Program-made: the position numbers and the translations under genes
In this document: in pieces, positions 1 to 5,897 of the stretch
How positions within the stretch are numbered: position 1 is the stretch's first letter
How the letters are laid out: the number at the start of each line of letters is the position of its first letter
Assembly: GCF_016775155.1 (NCBI RefSeq)
Contig: NZ_JAEUGD010000043.1
Span: forward strand, 1 to 64,000
Length of the DNA stretch: 64,000 nucleotides
Source of the DNA: Fulvivirga marina
Lineage (GTDB): Bacteria; Bacteroidota; Bacteroidia; Cytophagales; Cyclobacteriaceae
Reading direction: 5' to 3'
The notes under the pieces: generated by a model
Database searches by the model: none
Told to the model about the DNA's origin: nothing
Seen by the model: only the letters and a program-made list of their open reading frames with translations

Positions 1-60
1 GCTAACTGGCATATTTTGAACCGTAATCACTGGCATAAACACTCCGAAATCAGTGGCATA
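1..60. mobile_element. Terminal repeats of an IS21-like insertion sequence (partial)
   Basis: Three copies of a TGGCATA motif lie in direct orientation at 6-13, 30-37 and 53-60, spaced 23-24 bp. The last two share the longer context AATCA(C/G)TGGCATA. Multiple short direct repeats at the element ends are a hallmark of IS21-family elements, and my recollection is that Bacteroidota IS21 ends carry this kind of motif. No transposase is visible, so the element would extend left of the window. The exact end of the element is not determined. Confidence 0.45.
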
Positions 61-100
61 TTTCAAAACGTTATATCCATCTGCTTGGGGAGATTTTCTG

Positions 101-190
101 TTATGAGGTAGTTTCTTTCGAATATTCCTGCGCAATTGATGTAATTTGCTCTTTGTCAAATTGGGGGTTTGTGGACTTGGGAATGTGCAT
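101..190 (-). CDS. Short ORF downstream of dprA-like gene, possible truncated operon member
   Basis: A 29-codon frame starts with ATG 19 bp after the stop of the DprA-like gene on the same strand and ends just before the IS21-like repeats. It begins MHIPKSTNPQFDKEQ and has no recognisable domain. The position, strand and spacing fit a further gene of the helicase/PRTase/DprA operon whose 3' part was lost when the insertion sequence arrived. It could equally be a chance frame; 29 codons is too short to decide. Confidence 0.3.
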   Translation of the reverse strand: MHIPKSTNPQFDKEQITSIAQEYSKETTS

Positions 191-209
191 ATCTGTGAAT
201 TAGAGGCCT

Positions 210-1457
210 TTAAATTACTATTCTAATGTTCATTTTGGGGTTTATCATAAAGGATAACGGTTTACTGGTTTTAATAAGAAAATCTCTCTCCGTACCCATT
301 TTTAACCACTCATCCAATTGACTATTTGTAAGTTTTAATTCCTCCTTCATCTCTTTTTTGGTAACAGTTTTATTTTTGAAATGGTCAATCAGTTTTACTA
401 AAAATAAGTCAAATAAAGAAGCTTCTTTAATTTTGATTTGGAATTCACTTCTATTTAAGTCTAATGTAGTTTTATTCTTTTCGCCTTCTGAGGGCGTCTC
501 TGAATTTGATAAGGAGAACAGTTCAAGTTCATTAAATTTAGAATGATGTTCAGTTAATTTGGATATATTCCAGTCATCATTGATTGAGAGTTTTTTAGCT
601 CCCATTTTTACTATCTCATTATTTCCTTTTCCATCATTATTGATCACCCAAATGGGAACCCAACCCTTCTTAATGTTTTCTTTTGCTCCTTCCCATGTTC
701 CTCCTTTAATATCTGATTTCATAACAATAGTTGCCTCAGATTGAGTATAAATTAGCTTATTCCTGGCCATTGCATTACCCACATTAAAGCCAGCCTCAGG
801 ATTGTATGGTGAAGCCAAACAGAGTTGTTTTTTGATGATGAATTTTCTGAAAATACTCGAAGTGGATTTCTTAATTAATGAGTCGGCCACAAAACCTAGT
901 GAAAAACCGCCAGCTTCTAAAGCTCCTAACATTGCTGCTTCATCGACCCCTATTGCCCCTCCAGAGACTACTCCGAATTTATCTCTAGTAATTTTCGAAC
1001 CTATTCTCTTTGTGTCGTTTAATTCTTGTTCACTGGACTTTCTTGCCCCGACCACCCCAATATAACTTTGGTTAAGAAGTTCAATCCTGCCGATCCCAAA
1101 TAATATTGGAGGAGCATTTTCCTTTAGTTTATTTTTAATCCTTTTAGGATATTCACTATCACCTCTGTTAATGATCCAAATCCCTGCTTTTGACCATTTG
1201 TCTAGTGCTATTGCTAAGCTAGATTTTCGATCTAATAAAAAGTTTATTCGTTCTGAAGAAATAGTCTTGTCTCGTAAATTATCGAGCAATTCGGCACTAT
1301 TCTGAGCTAAAAAGTCCTCTGGGTTTATTCCTTTAGTTTGTAGAAATCTAACAAATCGGTTCCATTCGGTAGTTGTCAATGGTTTCAGGTTTCTATCTGA
1401 GTTCTTAGCAAAGTAAGATGTAAATAATAATATAGCCTTTGTTCTATCTGTAACCAT
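210..1457 (-). CDS. DprA/Smf-like SLOG-fold protein of a putative defence cassette
   Basis: This 415-residue protein carries a DprA-type Rossmann (SLOG) domain at about residues 95-300: GVVGARKSS near 134, SGGAIGVDEAA at 165-175 (canonical DprA has SGxAxGID), GNAMARNKLI near 227 (canonical RNR) and KGGTWEGA at 251-258. The last 50 residues look like a winged helix, as in many DprA proteins. Classical DprA loads RecA on incoming single-stranded DNA. Here the gene starts 4 bp after the RecQ-PRTase stop and is not near competence genes. The pairing with a PRTase recalls ShosA, the DprA-like antitoxin of ShosTA, so a regulatory or antitoxin role is inferred. The motifs diverge from housekeeping DprA, so I do not assign dprA. 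Confidence 0.85.
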   Translation of the reverse strand: MVTDRTKAILLFTSYFAKNSDRNLKPLTTTEWNRFVRFLQTKGINPEDFLAQNSAELLDNLRDKTISSERINFLLDRKSSLAIALDKWSKAGIWIINRGDSEYPKRIKNKLKENAPPILFGIGRIELLNQSYIGVVGARKSSEQELNDTKRIGSKITRDKFGVVSGGAIGVDEAAMLGALEAGGFSLGFVADSLIKKSTSSIFRKFIIKKQLCLASPYNPEAGFNVGNAMARNKLIYTQSEATIVMKSDIKGGTWEGAKENIKKGWVPIWVINNDGKGNNEIVKMGAKKLSINDDWNISKLTEHHSKFNELELFSLSNSETPSEGEKNKTTLDLNRSEFQIKIKEASLFDLFLVKLIDHFKNKTVTKKEMKEELKLTNSQLDEWLKMGTERDFLIKTSKPLSFMINPKMNIRIVI

Positions 1458-1461
1458 AGTT

Positions 1462-3555
1462 TTAATTAGCTGATGTTGAAGTTAATGTTGCAGGGTATAC
1501 AATGCCGCTTCCTGCAGCTCTTAGTAATGCAGTTGCGATTGTCAATGTCCACCCAGAATCAATGGCATCATCAATTAGTAGTACGGGTTCCTCAATTCTA
1601 ACATTATTACCTATTTCAAAAATACCATCCAAATTTTTACACTGAAAGTAACTATTTTCTTGTTCTTTTTGAGGAGCTGTTTCCTCGATTTTATTGATTA
1701 CAGGAATGAATGGTATGCCAAGCTTGACGGCAACTCTATTCGAAAATGATGGAACTAAATCAGGGTGCCTATGGGATGGTATGCAGGTAACCCAAGTAGG
1801 TGAAGGAGAAGGCTTCCATCTTTTGTTGATCATTTCTACAAATGCTTCAACTAATTCATCTCTAAAGTGATTATTGTGTTTATCTAGTGCTACAATTTTT
1901 CCCCACCCGGCATCACCCCACCTTGATAAAGTTTTTCCAATCTCCCCCCGCAAATTCAATGGTAGGTTGCCTGCTAATTCGTATTTAGATAATGCGTCAT
2001 ATTGAATACGAGTTTTCAATTTTATATCGAATTCAGAATGCTTTAAAAATAGAGCTGCCTCTACGCCATTTTGGTGAGTAACTTCTTCGTGTAATTTACT
2101 ATTTGTGCAATTGACACATTTTCCACAGTTAGATTTATTGGGATCATCTAGTGAATCTTGTAGGTATCTCATTAAACATCTATTGTGTTCAATGTACTCT
2201 TTGACTTCCTCCCACTCATTAACGCGTTGACTTGTTAATCTTAGAATCTTTTCAGAGTCCATTTCATAATCTACAGCCGCTCTTTTCCATTTGCTTCCAA
2301 TTTTTACAATTGGTGAAGTTTCTTCAACTTTGAGGTATTTTAGAACTTGCTCTATTTGCCCTTGTCTTAAATTGAGTTCCTTCATCAGTTCGGGCACCGA
2401 TAAACCATCGTGTTCATCCAGTTTATTCAAAATTGCAGTAACGCGCTCTCTAGGTGGAAATGCGGACCGTCTGAAATACTCATGTATTTTGTCATCCTCT
2501 TGTCCAGATAAAAGTATTCCATATGCTTGGTCTATTGCTCGTCCAGCTCTTCCAACCTGCTGATAATAGGAAATAATTGAATTAGGGGCTTGGTAATGTA
2601 CGACAAATCCTAAATCAGGTTTGTCATAACCCATTCCCAGAGCAGAAGTTGCAACTAAGACCTTAATTTCATTATTGAATAAGACATCTTCAACGTACTG
2701 TCTGTATGTGTTAGAATCCTCAAAATTGTCATCAATCGCTCCGGAATAATAGTATGCAGCTTCAATATCGCATTCGATCAACCAATCAGTGACAATGTGT
2801 GCATCTCTTTTTGTTAAAGTATATATTATTCCGCTTCCAGGAAGTCTTTCAATATTTTCCTTTAACCAAGCCAATCTTGAAGCTTGATCTTTGAGCTTTA
2901 TATTTTGTAAAGAGATACTTTTCCTGGTAAGCGCACCTCTTATAATCTCTATATTACCAAGCTGTGAAACGATATCCTCGCATACTCTGTCATTAGCTGT
3001 TGCGGTAGTTCCAAGAATTGGCATACCATCAGGCATAAATTTTAATATGCTTATTATTCTCCGATAATCAGGCCTAAAGTCATGACCCCAATCAGAAATA
3101 CAATGAGCTTCATCAACAACAAATAAACCGATTCTATCAGCTATTGGTCTTAATACATTATCCATAAAACTTTCATTTGAAAGTCTCTCAGGCGAGATCA
3201 ATAGAGCATCTATTTCATTGTTGAGTACGGCTTGTTTGTGAGCTTCCCAATCAGATATATTAGTTGAATTAATTGAAACTGCATTTATTCCTAGTCTTTC
3301 AGCTGCATCAACTTGATTTCTCATGAGTGCGAGCAATGGTGAAATAATAATGGTAGTACCTTTACCTTGATCTCTCAAAATTCTTGTACTAATGAAATAA
3401 ACAGAGCTTTTTCCCCATCCCGTTCTCTCTATAACAAGTAGCTTCTTTCGACCATTTACTAAACTGTCAATAGCTTCCCACTGACCTTCTCTAAATTCAG
3501 CAGAAGGATCATTTATAGCCTTTCTTAATAATTTTAACCCTTCCTCTTTAGTCAT
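1462..3555 (-). CDS. RecQ-type helicase fused to C-terminal ComF-like phosphoribosyltransferase
   Basis: A 697-residue fusion. The helicase part shows Walker A TGWGKSS (45-51), DEAH (148-151) inside the RecQ signature DEAHCISDWGHDFRP, TTATAN (183-188) and motif VI QQVGRAGR (332-339). Cysteines 460, 477, 480 and 483 have the same spacing as the E. coli RecQ zinc site. A likely winged helix (about 370-425) lies before the zinc cluster rather than after it, and there is no HRDC domain. The C-terminal 140 residues are a type I PRTase with PRPP-binding loop VLLIDDAIDSGWT (658-670), as in ComFC. The gene overlaps the XRE gene by 8 bp. It is probably an anti-phage effector or nucleic-acid processing enzyme; the PRTase substrate is unknown. 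Confidence 0.92.
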   Translation of the reverse strand: MTKEEGLKLLRKAINDPSAEFREGQWEAIDSLVNGRKKLLVIERTGWGKSSVYFISTRILRDQGKGTTIIISPLLALMRNQVDAAERLGINAVSINSTNISDWEAHKQAVLNNEIDALLISPERLSNESFMDNVLRPIADRIGLFVVDEAHCISDWGHDFRPDYRRIISILKFMPDGMPILGTTATANDRVCEDIVSQLGNIEIIRGALTRKSISLQNIKLKDQASRLAWLKENIERLPGSGIIYTLTKRDAHIVTDWLIECDIEAAYYYSGAIDDNFEDSNTYRQYVEDVLFNNEIKVLVATSALGMGYDKPDLGFVVHYQAPNSIISYYQQVGRAGRAIDQAYGILLSGQEDDKIHEYFRRSAFPPRERVTAILNKLDEHDGLSVPELMKELNLRQGQIEQVLKYLKVEETSPIVKIGSKWKRAAVDYEMDSEKILRLTSQRVNEWEEVKEYIEHNRCLMRYLQDSLDDPNKSNCGKCVNCTNSKLHEEVTHQNGVEAALFLKHSEFDIKLKTRIQYDALSKYELAGNLPLNLRGEIGKTLSRWGDAGWGKIVALDKHNNHFRDELVEAFVEMINKRWKPSPSPTWVTCIPSHRHPDLVPSFSNRVAVKLGIPFIPVINKIEETAPQKEQENSYFQCKNLDGIFEIGNNVRIEEPVLLIDDAIDSGWTLTIATALLRAAGSGIVYPATLTSTSAN

Positions 3556-3742
3556 TTTCTGCCTTTATTAATTCTTTGGGACTGACTTGTAATATCTTGG
3601 CAATCTCAAAAAGTACGGCTAGCCTAGGTTGTTGCCTGTTTTGCACATATCCATTAACCATGTTGTAGCTTTTTCCAAGTTGTTTAGCCAACCAAATCTG
3701 TTTAATACCCTTATCTTCTAAAACTTCCTTTATTCGGTTCAT
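3548..3742 (-). CDS. XRE/Cro-CI family transcriptional regulator
   Basis: A 64-residue single-domain helix-turn-helix protein (IKQIWLAKQLGKSYNMVNGYV is the turn region), lacking any extra domain. It is the first gene of the minus-strand cassette and its stop overlaps the helicase start by 8 bp, so the two are translationally coupled. An inverted repeat, GAACCAA-N10-TTGGTTC, lies 19 bp upstream, fitting autorepression of the operon. Such small XRE repressors commonly lead defence and toxin-antitoxin operons; no other target is visible here. Confidence 0.9.
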   Translation of the reverse strand: MNRIKEVLEDKGIKQIWLAKQLGKSYNMVNGYVQNRQQPRLAVLFEIAKILQVSPKELIKAEND

Positions 3743-4048
3743 TTCAGTTTAAAATTATGTGAACCAAGATAGTATTTTTGGTTCTAAATATCTTGTTTTT
3801 TAATATATAAATAGTTCGAAATATCTATATTGAGCGTGAGAATGTTCCAGCTCTTTTGGTTTTTCAGAGTTGATGTTATGGTGACAAAAACCAAATGCGC
3901 TATATTGTATGGAGGACCTACACCATGACTAGCCCCTAACAAAGTGTATAATAATAGGAGGCTTAATTAATCCACTCTTTATAAAGAGTACTTTGACAAA
4001 GGCTGATGGCATAGCTTAGTACAATATTTGTAAGCAACCTTTAATTCT
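3743..4048. other. Intergenic region between defence cassette and next gene
   Basis: Beyond the operator candidate this 306-bp stretch contains a perfect 16-bp palindrome ACTCTTTATAAAGAGT at 3974-3989, about 60 bp before the following small gene. No coding frame with family resemblance was seen. The palindrome could be an operator or the remains of an element boundary. Confidence 0.5.
3761..3826. promoter_or_regulatory. Operator candidate upstream of XRE-helicase-dprA operon
   Basis: A perfect inverted repeat with 7-bp arms GAACCAA (3761-3767) and TTGGTTC (3778-3784) is followed by two direct copies of GTTC(T/G)AAATATCT at 3781-3793 and 3814-3826. The site lies directly upstream of the XRE start at 3742 on the minus strand. 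A dyad plus repeated half-sites is what a small Cro/CI-type autorepressor would bind. Binding is inferred from position only. Confidence 0.5.
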
Positions 4049-4264
4049 ATGACCAGCAACCATTCCATCAACAGCCGCCCCGATTTAGAAGTATTTTATG
4101 AATCTGTCGAGATTTCACGTTTCAAGAGCAACCTAAGGTGTGTGCTGTTTGATTACTTAAGTGTCAAACATTACGACTTGATACCAGACTTTGAGAGTTT
4201 TATGCAGGACATGAATTCTTTGTTTGACTTCCTTGATTCATTGGAGAAAATCGAGCGCTCTTAA
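4049..4264 (+). CDS. Small hypothetical protein, 71 aa
   Basis: An ATG frame of 71 codons encodes an acidic, Phe- and Asp-rich peptide (DLIPDFESFMQDMNSLFDFLDSLEK near the C-terminus) predicted to be helical. There is no signal peptide, membrane segment or recognised domain. It sits alone between the defence cassette and the TetR gene, 60 bp after a 16-bp palindrome. It may be real, but similarity evidence is lacking. Confidence 0.45.
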   Translation: MTSNHSINSRPDLEVFYESVEISRFKSNLRCVLFDYLSVKHYDLIPDFESFMQDMNSLFDFLDSLEKIERS

Positions 4265-4318
4265 ACTATCTCCTATCCGAGGCATCTTATTGATCAGTAA
4301 GATATTTTCATGTCAATA

Positions 4319-4359
4319 TTAGACAGACTTGTCTAATCAAATTCTTTTATTTATGTTTG
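4319..4359 (+). promoter_or_regulatory. TetR promoter with NemR-type operator
   Basis: A dyad TTAGACA-GACT-TGTCTAA occupies 4319-4336. Its core TAGAC-N6-GTCTA matches the operator type known for NemR-like TetR regulators. A Bacteroidota -7 element TATGTTTG (TAnnTTTG) lies at 4352-4359, with a TTG-type -33 element inside the dyad about 20 bp upstream. Repressor binding would cover the -33 element, so autorepression of the TetR gene at 4379 is likely. Confidence 0.65.
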
Positions 4360-4378
4360 GCCAATCAAATCGTAAATA

Positions 4379-4900
4379 ATGAAGGTTCGAGATAAACTGA
4401 TATACACTGCAGCCCGGCTGTTTCACAGACATGGCTATAACTCTACGGGGATTAACCAGATCATCGAAGAAGCGGAAATTGCCAAAGGTAGTTTCTACTA
4501 CAACTTTAAGTCGAAGGAAGATCTCTGCATAGCCTACTTAGAGTTTCGTCATACTTATTGGTTTACCAAGCTTCGCCAATATGTGAAGAAACATGCGGGA
4601 GAGAGCAGTGAAGTTTTATGTGCATTTGACTTTTTGGTGTCTATGAATGAACTGGAAAACTTTAGAGGCTGCAGTTTCCTCAATATACTTTCTGAACTCA
4701 ACGAAAATGATTCGAAAATCCTTGAAGTAATCCGAAGTCATAAAAGCGACTTAAGAGATTATATCAAAACCCTGGTGAGTCCTGGTATAAGTGATCATGT
4801 GTATTTGCTGTTTGAAAGTTCGATTATAGAAAGTCAGTTGTTCAAGGATCAGTGGCCAATTATTAAATCTAAAAATATAGTTCAATCCCTAATTAACTAA
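4379..4900 (+). CDS. TetR/AcrR family transcriptional regulator
   Basis: A 173-residue regulator with the TetR N-terminal DNA-binding domain: helix-turn-helix at residues 23-45, ending in the typical [13 protein letters not shown]. The ligand domain contains [11 protein letters not shown], a Cys-containing segment placed like the GC(x)LxNLxxE segment of NemR/AcuR-like regulators, which may sense electrophiles or oxidants. It is followed 4 bp later by an NTF2-like gene, so the two form an operon behind a NemR-type operator. The inducer is not deducible from sequence. Confidence 0.92.
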
Positions 4901-4904
4901 AGCT

Positions 4905-5318
4905 ATGGAAGTGAAAAAACCATTACCGCCATTCACGCACGAAACAGCAATGCAGAAAGTGCAAATGGCAGAAGACGCATGGAATTCCAGGAATCCGGAG
5001 AAGGTATCTCTTGCCTACTCTGTAGATACCGAGTGGAGGAACAGAGATAAATTTATCAAGGGCAGAGAGGGCGTAGTTCAGTTCTTATCTGATAAGTGGA
5101 ATAAAGAGCTTGACTATAAACTCAAGAAAGAACTATGGGCATTTACCGACAATAAAATTGCTGTACGTTTCGAGTATGAATATCATGATACGAACGGGCA
5201 ATGGTACCGAGCCTATGGAAATGAGAATTGGGAGTTTGATGAATACGGATTTATGAAAAAGCGATATGCCAGCATCAATGATCTGCCGATAGATGAAAAA
5301 GACAGAAGGATGAAATAA
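4905..5318 (+). CDS. NTF2-like superfamily protein (DUF1348)
   Basis: A 137-residue cytosolic protein of the SnoaL/NTF2 fold. It begins with the DUF1348 hallmark of a helix ([17 protein letters not shown]) followed by [13 protein letters not shown] and a conserved [16 protein letters not shown] strand pair; the C-terminus RRMK is close to the usual family end. No catalytic function is established for DUF1348. It is co-transcribed with the preceding TetR gene, which probably controls it. TetR plus DUF1348 pairs are common in Bacteroidota, so a stress-linked enzyme role is a reasonable inference. Confidence 0.9.
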
Positions 5319-5897
5319 AAGTCACTCTTATTATAGTTTTTGTGAGGCTTGAGATAGTAATAGGTGTTTTATTAGGCTATTTATTTTTTGCATTTATAAA
5401 AACAGGTTCCATTTTTCTTCCGCCACGCCGTGCTTGTCCATTTCACTGCGTGCTATAGTAAATAAAAAATAGAATGAACGATTTATTCAGCCATAAATAT
5501 GCTTTTAAACGTATTTATGGTCTTTGTGCATCGGGGCTATCAGTATTAGTTCTTCACACCTGATCTGTGTGCAGATTACATGGCACAGTGCAGAAACTTA
5601 GTTTCTCCAGCAGTTCTTATTCATATAATACCCGTCACAACTACTTTCTTTTTTTACTTTATTCTAGTGGTACCGGGTTTAACTCCGGGGTCAAATGACG
5701 CTGGAAAATTATAACTAAACTGATTAAGCTCAATAAAGTTTTCCAATTCTTTAGCGTAATTGATTGATTTGCAGATTGCTTGTGCTGTAACAGAAATTGT
5801 AAAATTTAATAGTCTTGGATTTAGTAAGTTCAAGTCATAGTGTCGACTTTTGAGTCATAAGCACCCAAAAATTAAAGTGTAAAACCAATGTTTTTGA
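5319..5897. other. 579-bp intergenic region with one hairpin
   Basis: No supported gene was found. A stem with 9-bp arms CCATAAATA (5491-5499) and TATTTATGG (5512-5520) is present. A minus-strand frame from about 5859 to 5654 has no stop but also no ATG and no recognised motif, so I do not call it. The start of the downstream Crp gene is at the far end. Confidence 0.5.

Follow-up and report, generated by a model that had tools for sequence, protein, structure and literature searches.

A PsyrTA defence pair with an added XRE regulator in Fulvivirga marina, probably carried as one hairpin-bracketed operon cassette

The window analysed here (64,000 nucleotides of Fulvivirga marina; contig NZ_JAEUGD010000043.1 of assembly GCF_016775155.1, positions 1 to 64,000) carries close to its left end, at 210-3742, a gene for a RecQ-type helicase fused to a phosphoribosyltransferase (PRTase), followed by a DprA-like gene and preceded by the gene of a small XRE-type regulator. 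Judged by sequence, this stretch probably represents the PsyrTA defence pair plus an added XRE gene, carried as one operon cassette between two hairpin elements, here termed HP5' and HP3'. Family membership, gene order, an intact loop for binding phosphoribosyl pyrophosphate (PRPP) and the 5' bracket are observed, and so, with weaker evidence, is the 3' bracket; the brackets also recur around other defence and metal-resistance operons, and HP5' shows compensatory pairing. PsyrTA itself is already known, and the best reading of its packaging is that of an integron-like cassette. The features concerned are the following (aa, amino acids; E, expectation value):

210..1457, minus strand: psyrA (rqlI-like), DprA-type antitoxin, 415 aa (PADLOC PDLC03927 PsyrA, E=4.9e-130; Pfam DNA_processg_A)
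1462..3555, minus strand: psyrT (rqlH-like), RecQ-type helicase with C-terminal PRTase, 697 aa, predicted toxin/effector (PADLOC PDLC03928 PsyrT, E=6.6e-298, residues 3-696; TIGR00614)
1546..1581, minus strand: PRPP-binding loop LLIDDAIDSGWT of the PRTase domain, residues 659-670 of PsyrT (alignment A1)
3548..3742, minus strand: small XRE/Cro-type regulator, 64 aa (Pfam HTH_3/HTH_26; homologues in five other HP5' modules and in locus L044)
3828..3943, minus strand: HP5' hairpin element, 5' bracket (model R1, E=3.6e-18; the window copy is among the 11 sequences from which R1 was built)
137..199, minus strand: HP3' hairpin, degenerate, 3' bracket; the match starts 11 nt downstream of the final base of the psyrA stop codon (model R2)

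The three minus-strand open reading frames (ORFs; 3548-3742, 1462-3555 and 210-1457) lie as an earlier note on this DNA, made from the letters alone, had placed them, with an overlap of 8 bp between the XRE gene and psyrT (3548-3555) and a gap of 4 bp between psyrT and psyrA (1458-1461). Pfam assigns HTH_3/HTH_26 to the 64-aa product, DEAD and Helicase_C to the 697-aa product and DNA_processg_A to the 415-aa product. The fusion of a RecQ helicase to a PRPP-loop PRTase, likewise proposed in that note, is borne out by 236 bits against the NCBIfam model recQ_fam TIGR00614 (cut-off 219.8) and by a PADLOC PsyrT match that spans nearly the whole protein, while residues 604-686 give a weak adenine-PRTase match in NCBIfam (20 bits, cut-off 243). 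In alignment A1, which comprises 24 sequences including the window copy, the PRPP-loop residues D662, D663, S667 and T670 are invariant in 24/24, and DDAID is present in the window protein; the family-wide loss of such residues, which had been named as a finding that would speak against the proposal, is not seen in A1. The helicase motifs are mostly kept in A1, and zinc-type cysteines are present in the window PsyrT by inspection; the earlier description of intact motifs and cysteine spacing holds for the window to this extent, but the cysteines are missing in a subgroup of relatives (L017-L023). The DprA-like protein was rightly called diverged, since its score against NCBIfam TIGR00732 dprA (85.6 bits) falls below the cut-off of 191.

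The PADLOC matches also uphold the idea of a defence-type module of PRTase and DprA-like protein with helicase and PRTase in one polypeptide, though not the two affiliations originally suggested for it, ShosTA and ComF. By sequence, the pair is PsyrTA, an already known toxin-antitoxin defence pair: helicase and C-terminal PRTase reside in one protein, the toxin gene comes first, a DprA-like partner follows directly downstream, and the aspartates of the PRPP pocket are intact. The PRTase toxin of ShosTA is a separate protein. In the window, by contrast, the PRTase is fused to the RecQ helicase, and the ShosA models (1e-26 and 2e-11 in PADLOC) lie far behind PsyrA (4.9e-130); membership in ShosTA or ComF was rejected on domain layout and scores. 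What the window shares with ShosTA is a PRTase partner and a DprA-like antitoxin, and the available part of one source lists DprA homologues as antitoxins of ShosTA, SyrTA and RqlHI (PMC9122126). Derivation from ComF is, for its part, an analogy alone, and one also drawn by the RqlHI authors, who in the available portion of their paper remark on the resemblance to ComF and DprA (PMC4670107).

The closest described system is RqlHI, with the same RecQ-PRTase fusion immediately followed by a DprA-like gene, and both window proteins match the PADLOC models full length. The window differs in its XRE gene, which overlaps psyrT, and in its hairpin brackets, neither of which appears in the part of the RqlHI description at hand (PMC4670107). 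According to the same portion of that paper, RqlH alone is genotoxic, truncations and pocket mutants assign the toxicity to the PRTase domain, mutation of the PRTase pocket relieves it, and RqlI, which interacts with RqlH and is encoded in one operon with it, restrains RqlH (PMC4670107). By extension from the RqlHI work, PsyrT would act on DNA via its helicase part, the PRTase part would be the genotoxic effector, and PsyrA would bind and restrain PsyrT; a phage trigger that lifts this restraint would then lead to abortive infection.

PsyrT was found (E<=1e-60) in 32 of the 395 genomes of a phylum sample, counting the window's own, and in none of 14 other genomes of the genus, so that the window's genome is the sole carrier among 15. 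A PsyrA-like gene accompanies it in 28 of the 30 loci returned from the phylum sample, window included. Another 86 loci were examined, 80 from genomes, 4 from plasmids and 2 viral, and 81 of them have such a gene; several loci without one run into contig or locus ends. The neighbourhoods of homologues, whose inspection the earlier note had proposed, place relatives among type I restriction, BREX and other defence genes. On an Escherichia coli plasmid (L040, NZ_OX030731.1) PsyrTA sits between the specificity (S) and restriction (R) subunit genes of a type I restriction operon, and on an Acinetobacter plasmid (L042, NZ_CP090068.1) it is set into a BREX cluster, with pglX on one side and, on the other, a DUF262 gene followed by pglZ. 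A scan at E<=1e-15 covered 150 of the 154 genes that lie closest to these loci and encode 100 aa or more; its counts are lower bounds, as the tables stop at the 25 most common families. Type I specificity subunits make up at least 4/75 of the upstream neighbours and type I restriction subunits at least 6/75 of the downstream ones, together with single HamA, DruE and PtuA matches among those listed. Since relatives sit among such genes, the family looks accessory and defence-associated by its surroundings. Nesting in a type I restriction operon recurs in L060, L066 and L078, the restriction subunits of which are 86-97% identical to that of L040, and may represent a stable composite system. The PsyrT copies of L029, L030 and L031 are split or broken by stops, which may point to frequent toxin loss. 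Carriage of PsyrTA by phages was considered and rejected: a scan of viral sequences with PsyrT gave no relative, and one with a C-terminal alignment gave two, 17 phage records matching the helicase part only.

The package around these genes came to light with window 3800-3972 as query, which matches six other genomes of the genus at ten places in all. Behind these matches lie restriction/methylation genes, an AbiE-type pair, a PLD-type protein and TOTE-type primases (translations read by eye), L149 being the exception. A covariance model, R1, was built from these ten places and the window and already contains the structure; because the window copy helped build it, the recurrence of HP5' rests on the other copies. 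R1 finds 21 copies in 10 of the 15 genus genomes, the 11 building copies included, and places HP5' in 51 of the 395 phylum-sample genomes (40 of 171 genera). The outer stem of the element varies, the asymmetric internal loop is conserved, and the inner stem reads TTTGGTTTT/AAAACCAAA. For analysis of the flanks, 60 copies were taken (20 of the 21 genus matches and 40 of the 80 non-own matches of the phylum sample, the best down to E=2e-8 save for one that lies at a contig start), which yielded 54 distinct downstream modules. Over all 54 distinct copies, the bases pair in 96.0% of the cells, double changes occur in 11 of 16 pairs, and the covariation score of 0.364 compares with 0.108 (standard deviation 0.010) for shuffles and at most 0.129 for slid versions. 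Folded as a single sequence, the window copy is unremarkable (z -1.24), and the case for structure therefore rests on covariation. Rfam gave no match at HP5', which was accordingly rejected as a known RNA family. One HP5' copy used as query matched no phage record; the exact 17-base core occurs in seven viral contigs, of which R1 accepts one, L167 (IMGVR_UViG_3300025644_000026, classed viral; 3287-3398, E=2.9e-17). In L255 (4469-4601, minus strand) the loop carries an insert of about 45 nt with both stems kept.

HP5' stands in front of genes in a strikingly regular fashion. The gene of 100 aa or more that comes first downstream of it runs in the same direction in 50 of 52 modules, at a median gap of 64 bp, and the nearest upstream gene does so in 40 of 48. 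Downstream Pfam families (of 52) are led by N6_Mtase (7), followed by ResIII, DEAD and HTH_3 (5 each), SWI2_SNF2 and Eco57I (4 each) and HSDR_N (3). Methyltransferase and specificity families, summed over the 25 families tabulated per side, amount to at least 11/52 downstream, the window's module among them, versus at least 2/48 upstream (p=0.011). Upstream families are miscellaneous save for phage integrases, found as nearest gene in 6/48 and, by the table, at most once downstream. In nine loci (L220, L221, L226, L227, L244, L245, L253, L295 and L297) HP5' precedes operons that read as metal resistance (HMA-type, CusA-like and thioredoxin-like proteins), which is why the cargo cannot be described as defence alone. 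A single-contig genome holds two pairs of HP5' with equal spacing of 11.4 kb and opposite orientation (G059:C1:562297-573812 and 805708-817223), apparently a duplicated metal-resistance array.

HP3' is a second hairpin of the same architecture, with the inner stem shifted by one base, that lies behind the modules on the same strand. Its model, R2, was built from 19 copies and excludes the window; run on the 64-kb window, R2 returns 137-199 on the expected strand as the best match (E=0.00031), the next best being 0.26. Locus L044, a relative discussed below, has its best R2 match 10 nt past the psyrA stop (E=0.021) and its best R1 match about 80 nt before its XRE gene (E=0.04 with filters off). 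The window HP3' and the two L044 matches are each weak alone, and their positions agree. Within the fetched stretches, 16 of the 54 modules have an HP3' at E<=1e-10, 12 of these being R2-building loci; weak matches were added in L265 (E=7.5e-4, same strand, downstream) and in the window (2.5e-3 in this 54-module search). The count of 16 omits mirror-strand matches overlapping stronger ones, R2 matches on HP5' and the weak L265 match, and the opposite-strand R2 matches in the 54 modules are mirror images of same-strand matches only. In the 15 genus genomes, an HP3' (E<=0.001) follows within 12 kb downstream on the same strand for 13 of 21 HP5', where 0.04 are expected, and for none on the opposite strand; two HP3' rows, one of them an HP5' and the other a strand duplicate, had been dropped beforehand. 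Leaving out seven R2-building partners, the pairing still holds for 6/14 (0.02 expected). The operons thus bracketed span 1.2-11.4 kb. A clean bracket is found on plasmid p1 of Flammeovirga kamogawensis, where HP5' (E=5.9e-21) is followed by a helix-turn-helix (HTH) gene, an N-6 methylase, an S subunit, an ATP-binding protein and an HP3' (E=3.4e-18) that begins 9 nt past the last stop. The window's own genome contains a second cassette, L298 (G000:C6:8042-19613), with HP5' and HP3' 11.4 kb apart and a strong attC-like repeat upstream; its cargo reads by eye as an AbiE-like pair and type I restriction genes. In the 58 kb of the window outside the PsyrTA locus, a hairpin script returned none on either strand.

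Longer stretches of relatives show how such cassettes are strung together, in the order HP5', operon, HP3', attC-like repeat, next cassette, with 45-75 nt between HP3' and the attC-like repeat (L291, L295, L296, L297). The arrays of L291 and L295 are headed by a recombinase, and small hairpin-free cassettes lie in between in L291 and L292. The attC-like repeats were scored as inverted repeats, with no curated attC model; upstream of HP5' they reach a score of at least 16, one of five thresholds printed, in 25/54 loci as opposed to 181/1620 dinucleotide shuffles (p=3e-10), and at 20 in 12/54 as opposed to 32/1620. Recombinase homologues occur in the upstream flank of 10 of the 60 HP5' loci, two queries included, nine of them running with the module and one against it, and in the longer downstream flank of none of the 60. 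A homologue of the L274 recombinase is present (E<=1e-40) in 9 of the 15 genus genomes. NF040815 (XerA-like) places L274 above, L247 at and L220 below its cut-off, and TIGR02249 (integron integrase) gives all three 190-211 bits, under a cut-off of 265.

In the relatives, the likeness to integrons lies in a tyrosine recombinase ahead of same-orientation arrays, in attC-like repeats between cassettes and in the defence cargo. The differences are a recombinase that lacks the IntI insert and scores below TIGR02249, whole operons of 1.2-11.4 kb bracketed by paired hairpins, and the orientation of the recombinase, co-directional with the module in 9/10. Tn7-like transposons reportedly also carry defence cargo; the likeness there is the mobile carriage of defence systems, and the boundaries in our case are hairpins and attC-like sites. 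As to integrons in this phylum, the available parts of two papers list Bacteroidota among integron-bearing phyla (PMC8618304, PMC9668308), and the IntegronFinder 2.0 paper, in its available part, names one complete integron in a Bacteroidetes genome, that of Salinibacter ruber M1 (PMC9024848).

The XRE gene appears to belong to the package rather than to the pair. The earlier note's small regulator is indeed present as an XRE/HTH gene, but it is no general part of the system: phmmer finds a homologue before psyrT in just one of the 86 further loci, L044, and in none of the 29 other loci of the phylum sample, and XRE as a general third gene of PsyrTA was rejected on these counts. L044, from a metagenome-assembled genome of Bacteroidales (73% identity in the C-terminal query), shares the same 8-bp overlap of XRE and psyrT, and in a Pfam scan of ten short ORFs upstream of psyrT it alone has an HTH domain. 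XRE homologues with 40-53 of 64 residues identical head five other HP5' modules, starting 83-97 nt behind HP5' and followed by different genes. As these homologues come first in five modules with other cargo, the regulator seems to travel with the package, and we infer that it may be a portable front-end regulator of such modules. In the closest phylum-sample relative (L039 6222-8030, 66%), three other ORFs take the place of the XRE gene before psyrT, one of them sigma-factor-like, one small and one resembling an ImmA/IrrE-type peptidase, as read by eye from the translations.

Three further features describe the site of the window cassette:

3938..3940, minus strand: GTT, apparent left junction of the insert, with same-genus synteny (G408) beyond (match from window 3973 and alignment; placed by eye)
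98..107, minus strand: CTCATAACAG, perhaps the left half of an attC-like site that has been broken, some 45 nt beyond the HP3' hairpin proper (position alone, by eye)
1..79, no strand assigned: dispersed repeat in which the contig ends, perhaps the border of a mobile element present in many copies (8 further copies in its own genome)

The junction at GTT against same-genus synteny fits the insertion of a single cassette. Eight more copies of the repeat at 1-79, some complete and some partial, occur in the genome; two likewise lie at contig ends, and no transposase was recognised beside the two interior copies that were read. The mobile setting claimed in the earlier note is supported, though what it resembles is a hairpin-bracketed cassette and not an ordinary island; the island-like position itself finds no backing, as none of the 10 ORFs scanned right of the locus has a PADLOC match (E<=0.001) and the left contig end falls in the dispersed repeat. 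An attC scan of window 1-5400 came back empty, an array scan on 108 kb of the window strand gave two attC-like and no hairpin matches, and neither an attC site beside the cassette nor an integrase in the same genome was found. The window copy resembles an isolated, stray cassette that has no recombinase of its own. Brackets and attC-like sites, for their part, would mark cassettes that are dealt out in related genomes by an integron-integrase-like tyrosine recombinase.

A number of observations weigh against this picture. As to the window itself, its HP3' is a weak match of 24.7 bits that contains mismatched pairs and is missed in a genome-wide search at E<=0.001; its HP5' lacks an upstream attC-like repeat (score 4, equalled or bettered by 21 of 30 shuffles); the L274 recombinase has no match in its genome (G000) at E<=1e-40; and the left contig end inside the dispersed repeat speaks against a full integron at this site. 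Among relatives, 29 of 54 loci fall under the attC-like threshold used, and the L274 recombinase lacks the IntI-specific insert (it aligns to IntI4, 2a3v, in two blocks, with 20 versus 63 residues). On Arenibacter pSMS7, HP5' (6.6e-14) is followed by an IS4 transposase gene, with no HP3' in the stretch read; upstream of this HP5', on the opposite strand, lies a gene annotated as tyrosine recombinase/integron integrase. R1 finds no HP5' at E<=0.01 in 12 other PsyrTA loci, L044 included, and the brackets are therefore no property of PsyrTA. Finally, as far as the available part of one study goes, expressed PsyrTA gave no detectable protection under its conditions, plus a growth defect (PMC12409345).

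What the hairpins do is the point on which interpretations diverge. Tentatively, and as close to an even call, we advance a phylum-wide, integron-like traffic in which whole operons of phage defence or metal resistance move as cassettes, with HP5' and HP3' inside attC-like sites, served by XerA/IntI-like recombinases that lack the IntI domain and sometimes led by an XRE gene; the hairpins would be functional ends, for single-strand recognition or insulation, and PsyrTA one of many payloads. Somewhat less probable, yet to be taken seriously, is a role of HP5' and HP3' in regulation or insulation and not in mobility, as transcription insulators, terminators or leader RNAs that travel with accessory operons; the attC/recombinase area would then be just the place where these operons accumulate. 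The short distance and shared direction of HP5' and its first gene agree with this, as do the position of HP3' (in the window, L044 and L300 its match starts 9-11 nt behind the final stop codon), the many HP5' copies that adjoin assorted chromosomal genes, and the missing attC-like repeat upstream of the window HP5'; set against them, neither hairpin in the window scores as an intrinsic terminator, arms and internal loop conserved phylum-wide before different operons seem beyond an insulator's needs, and the enrichment of attC-like repeats and recombinases would be left unexplained.

We consider it unlikely that the operons are moved, without involvement of the integron-like recombinase, by a family of non-autonomous transposons whose two ends are the hairpins (recognised, for example, by an HUH transposase). 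Paired hairpins of the same orientation, with a conserved asymmetric internal loop and variable cargo in between, are what such a family might look like, but the 25 commonest Pfam families of the genes nearest to HP5', tabulated for each side, include no transposase, and in arrays the attC-like sites fall outside the brackets, 45-75 nt from HP3'. A role of the locus in DNA repair or competence instead of defence, in the manner of ComFA/ComFC/DprA, is highly improbable: RecQ, PRTase and DprA parts do resemble transformation machinery, and the RqlHI authors raise the same idea in the available part of their paper (PMC4670107), but PsyrTA is the best family by a wide margin, its distribution is patchy, and relatives lie inside type I restriction and BREX operons and beside restriction genes.

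The news is the package and not PsyrTA. No published description of hairpin-bracketed cassettes was found in the open-access literature, with bioRxiv outside the scope, and they are apparently undescribed. If the cassettes are real mobile units, they would represent a mostly uncharted route by which multi-gene defence and metal-resistance operons spread in Bacteroidota, and the HP5' and HP3' models would offer a direct handle on it, as any operon between a matched pair becomes a candidate defence or stress module, even where its genes are unknown.

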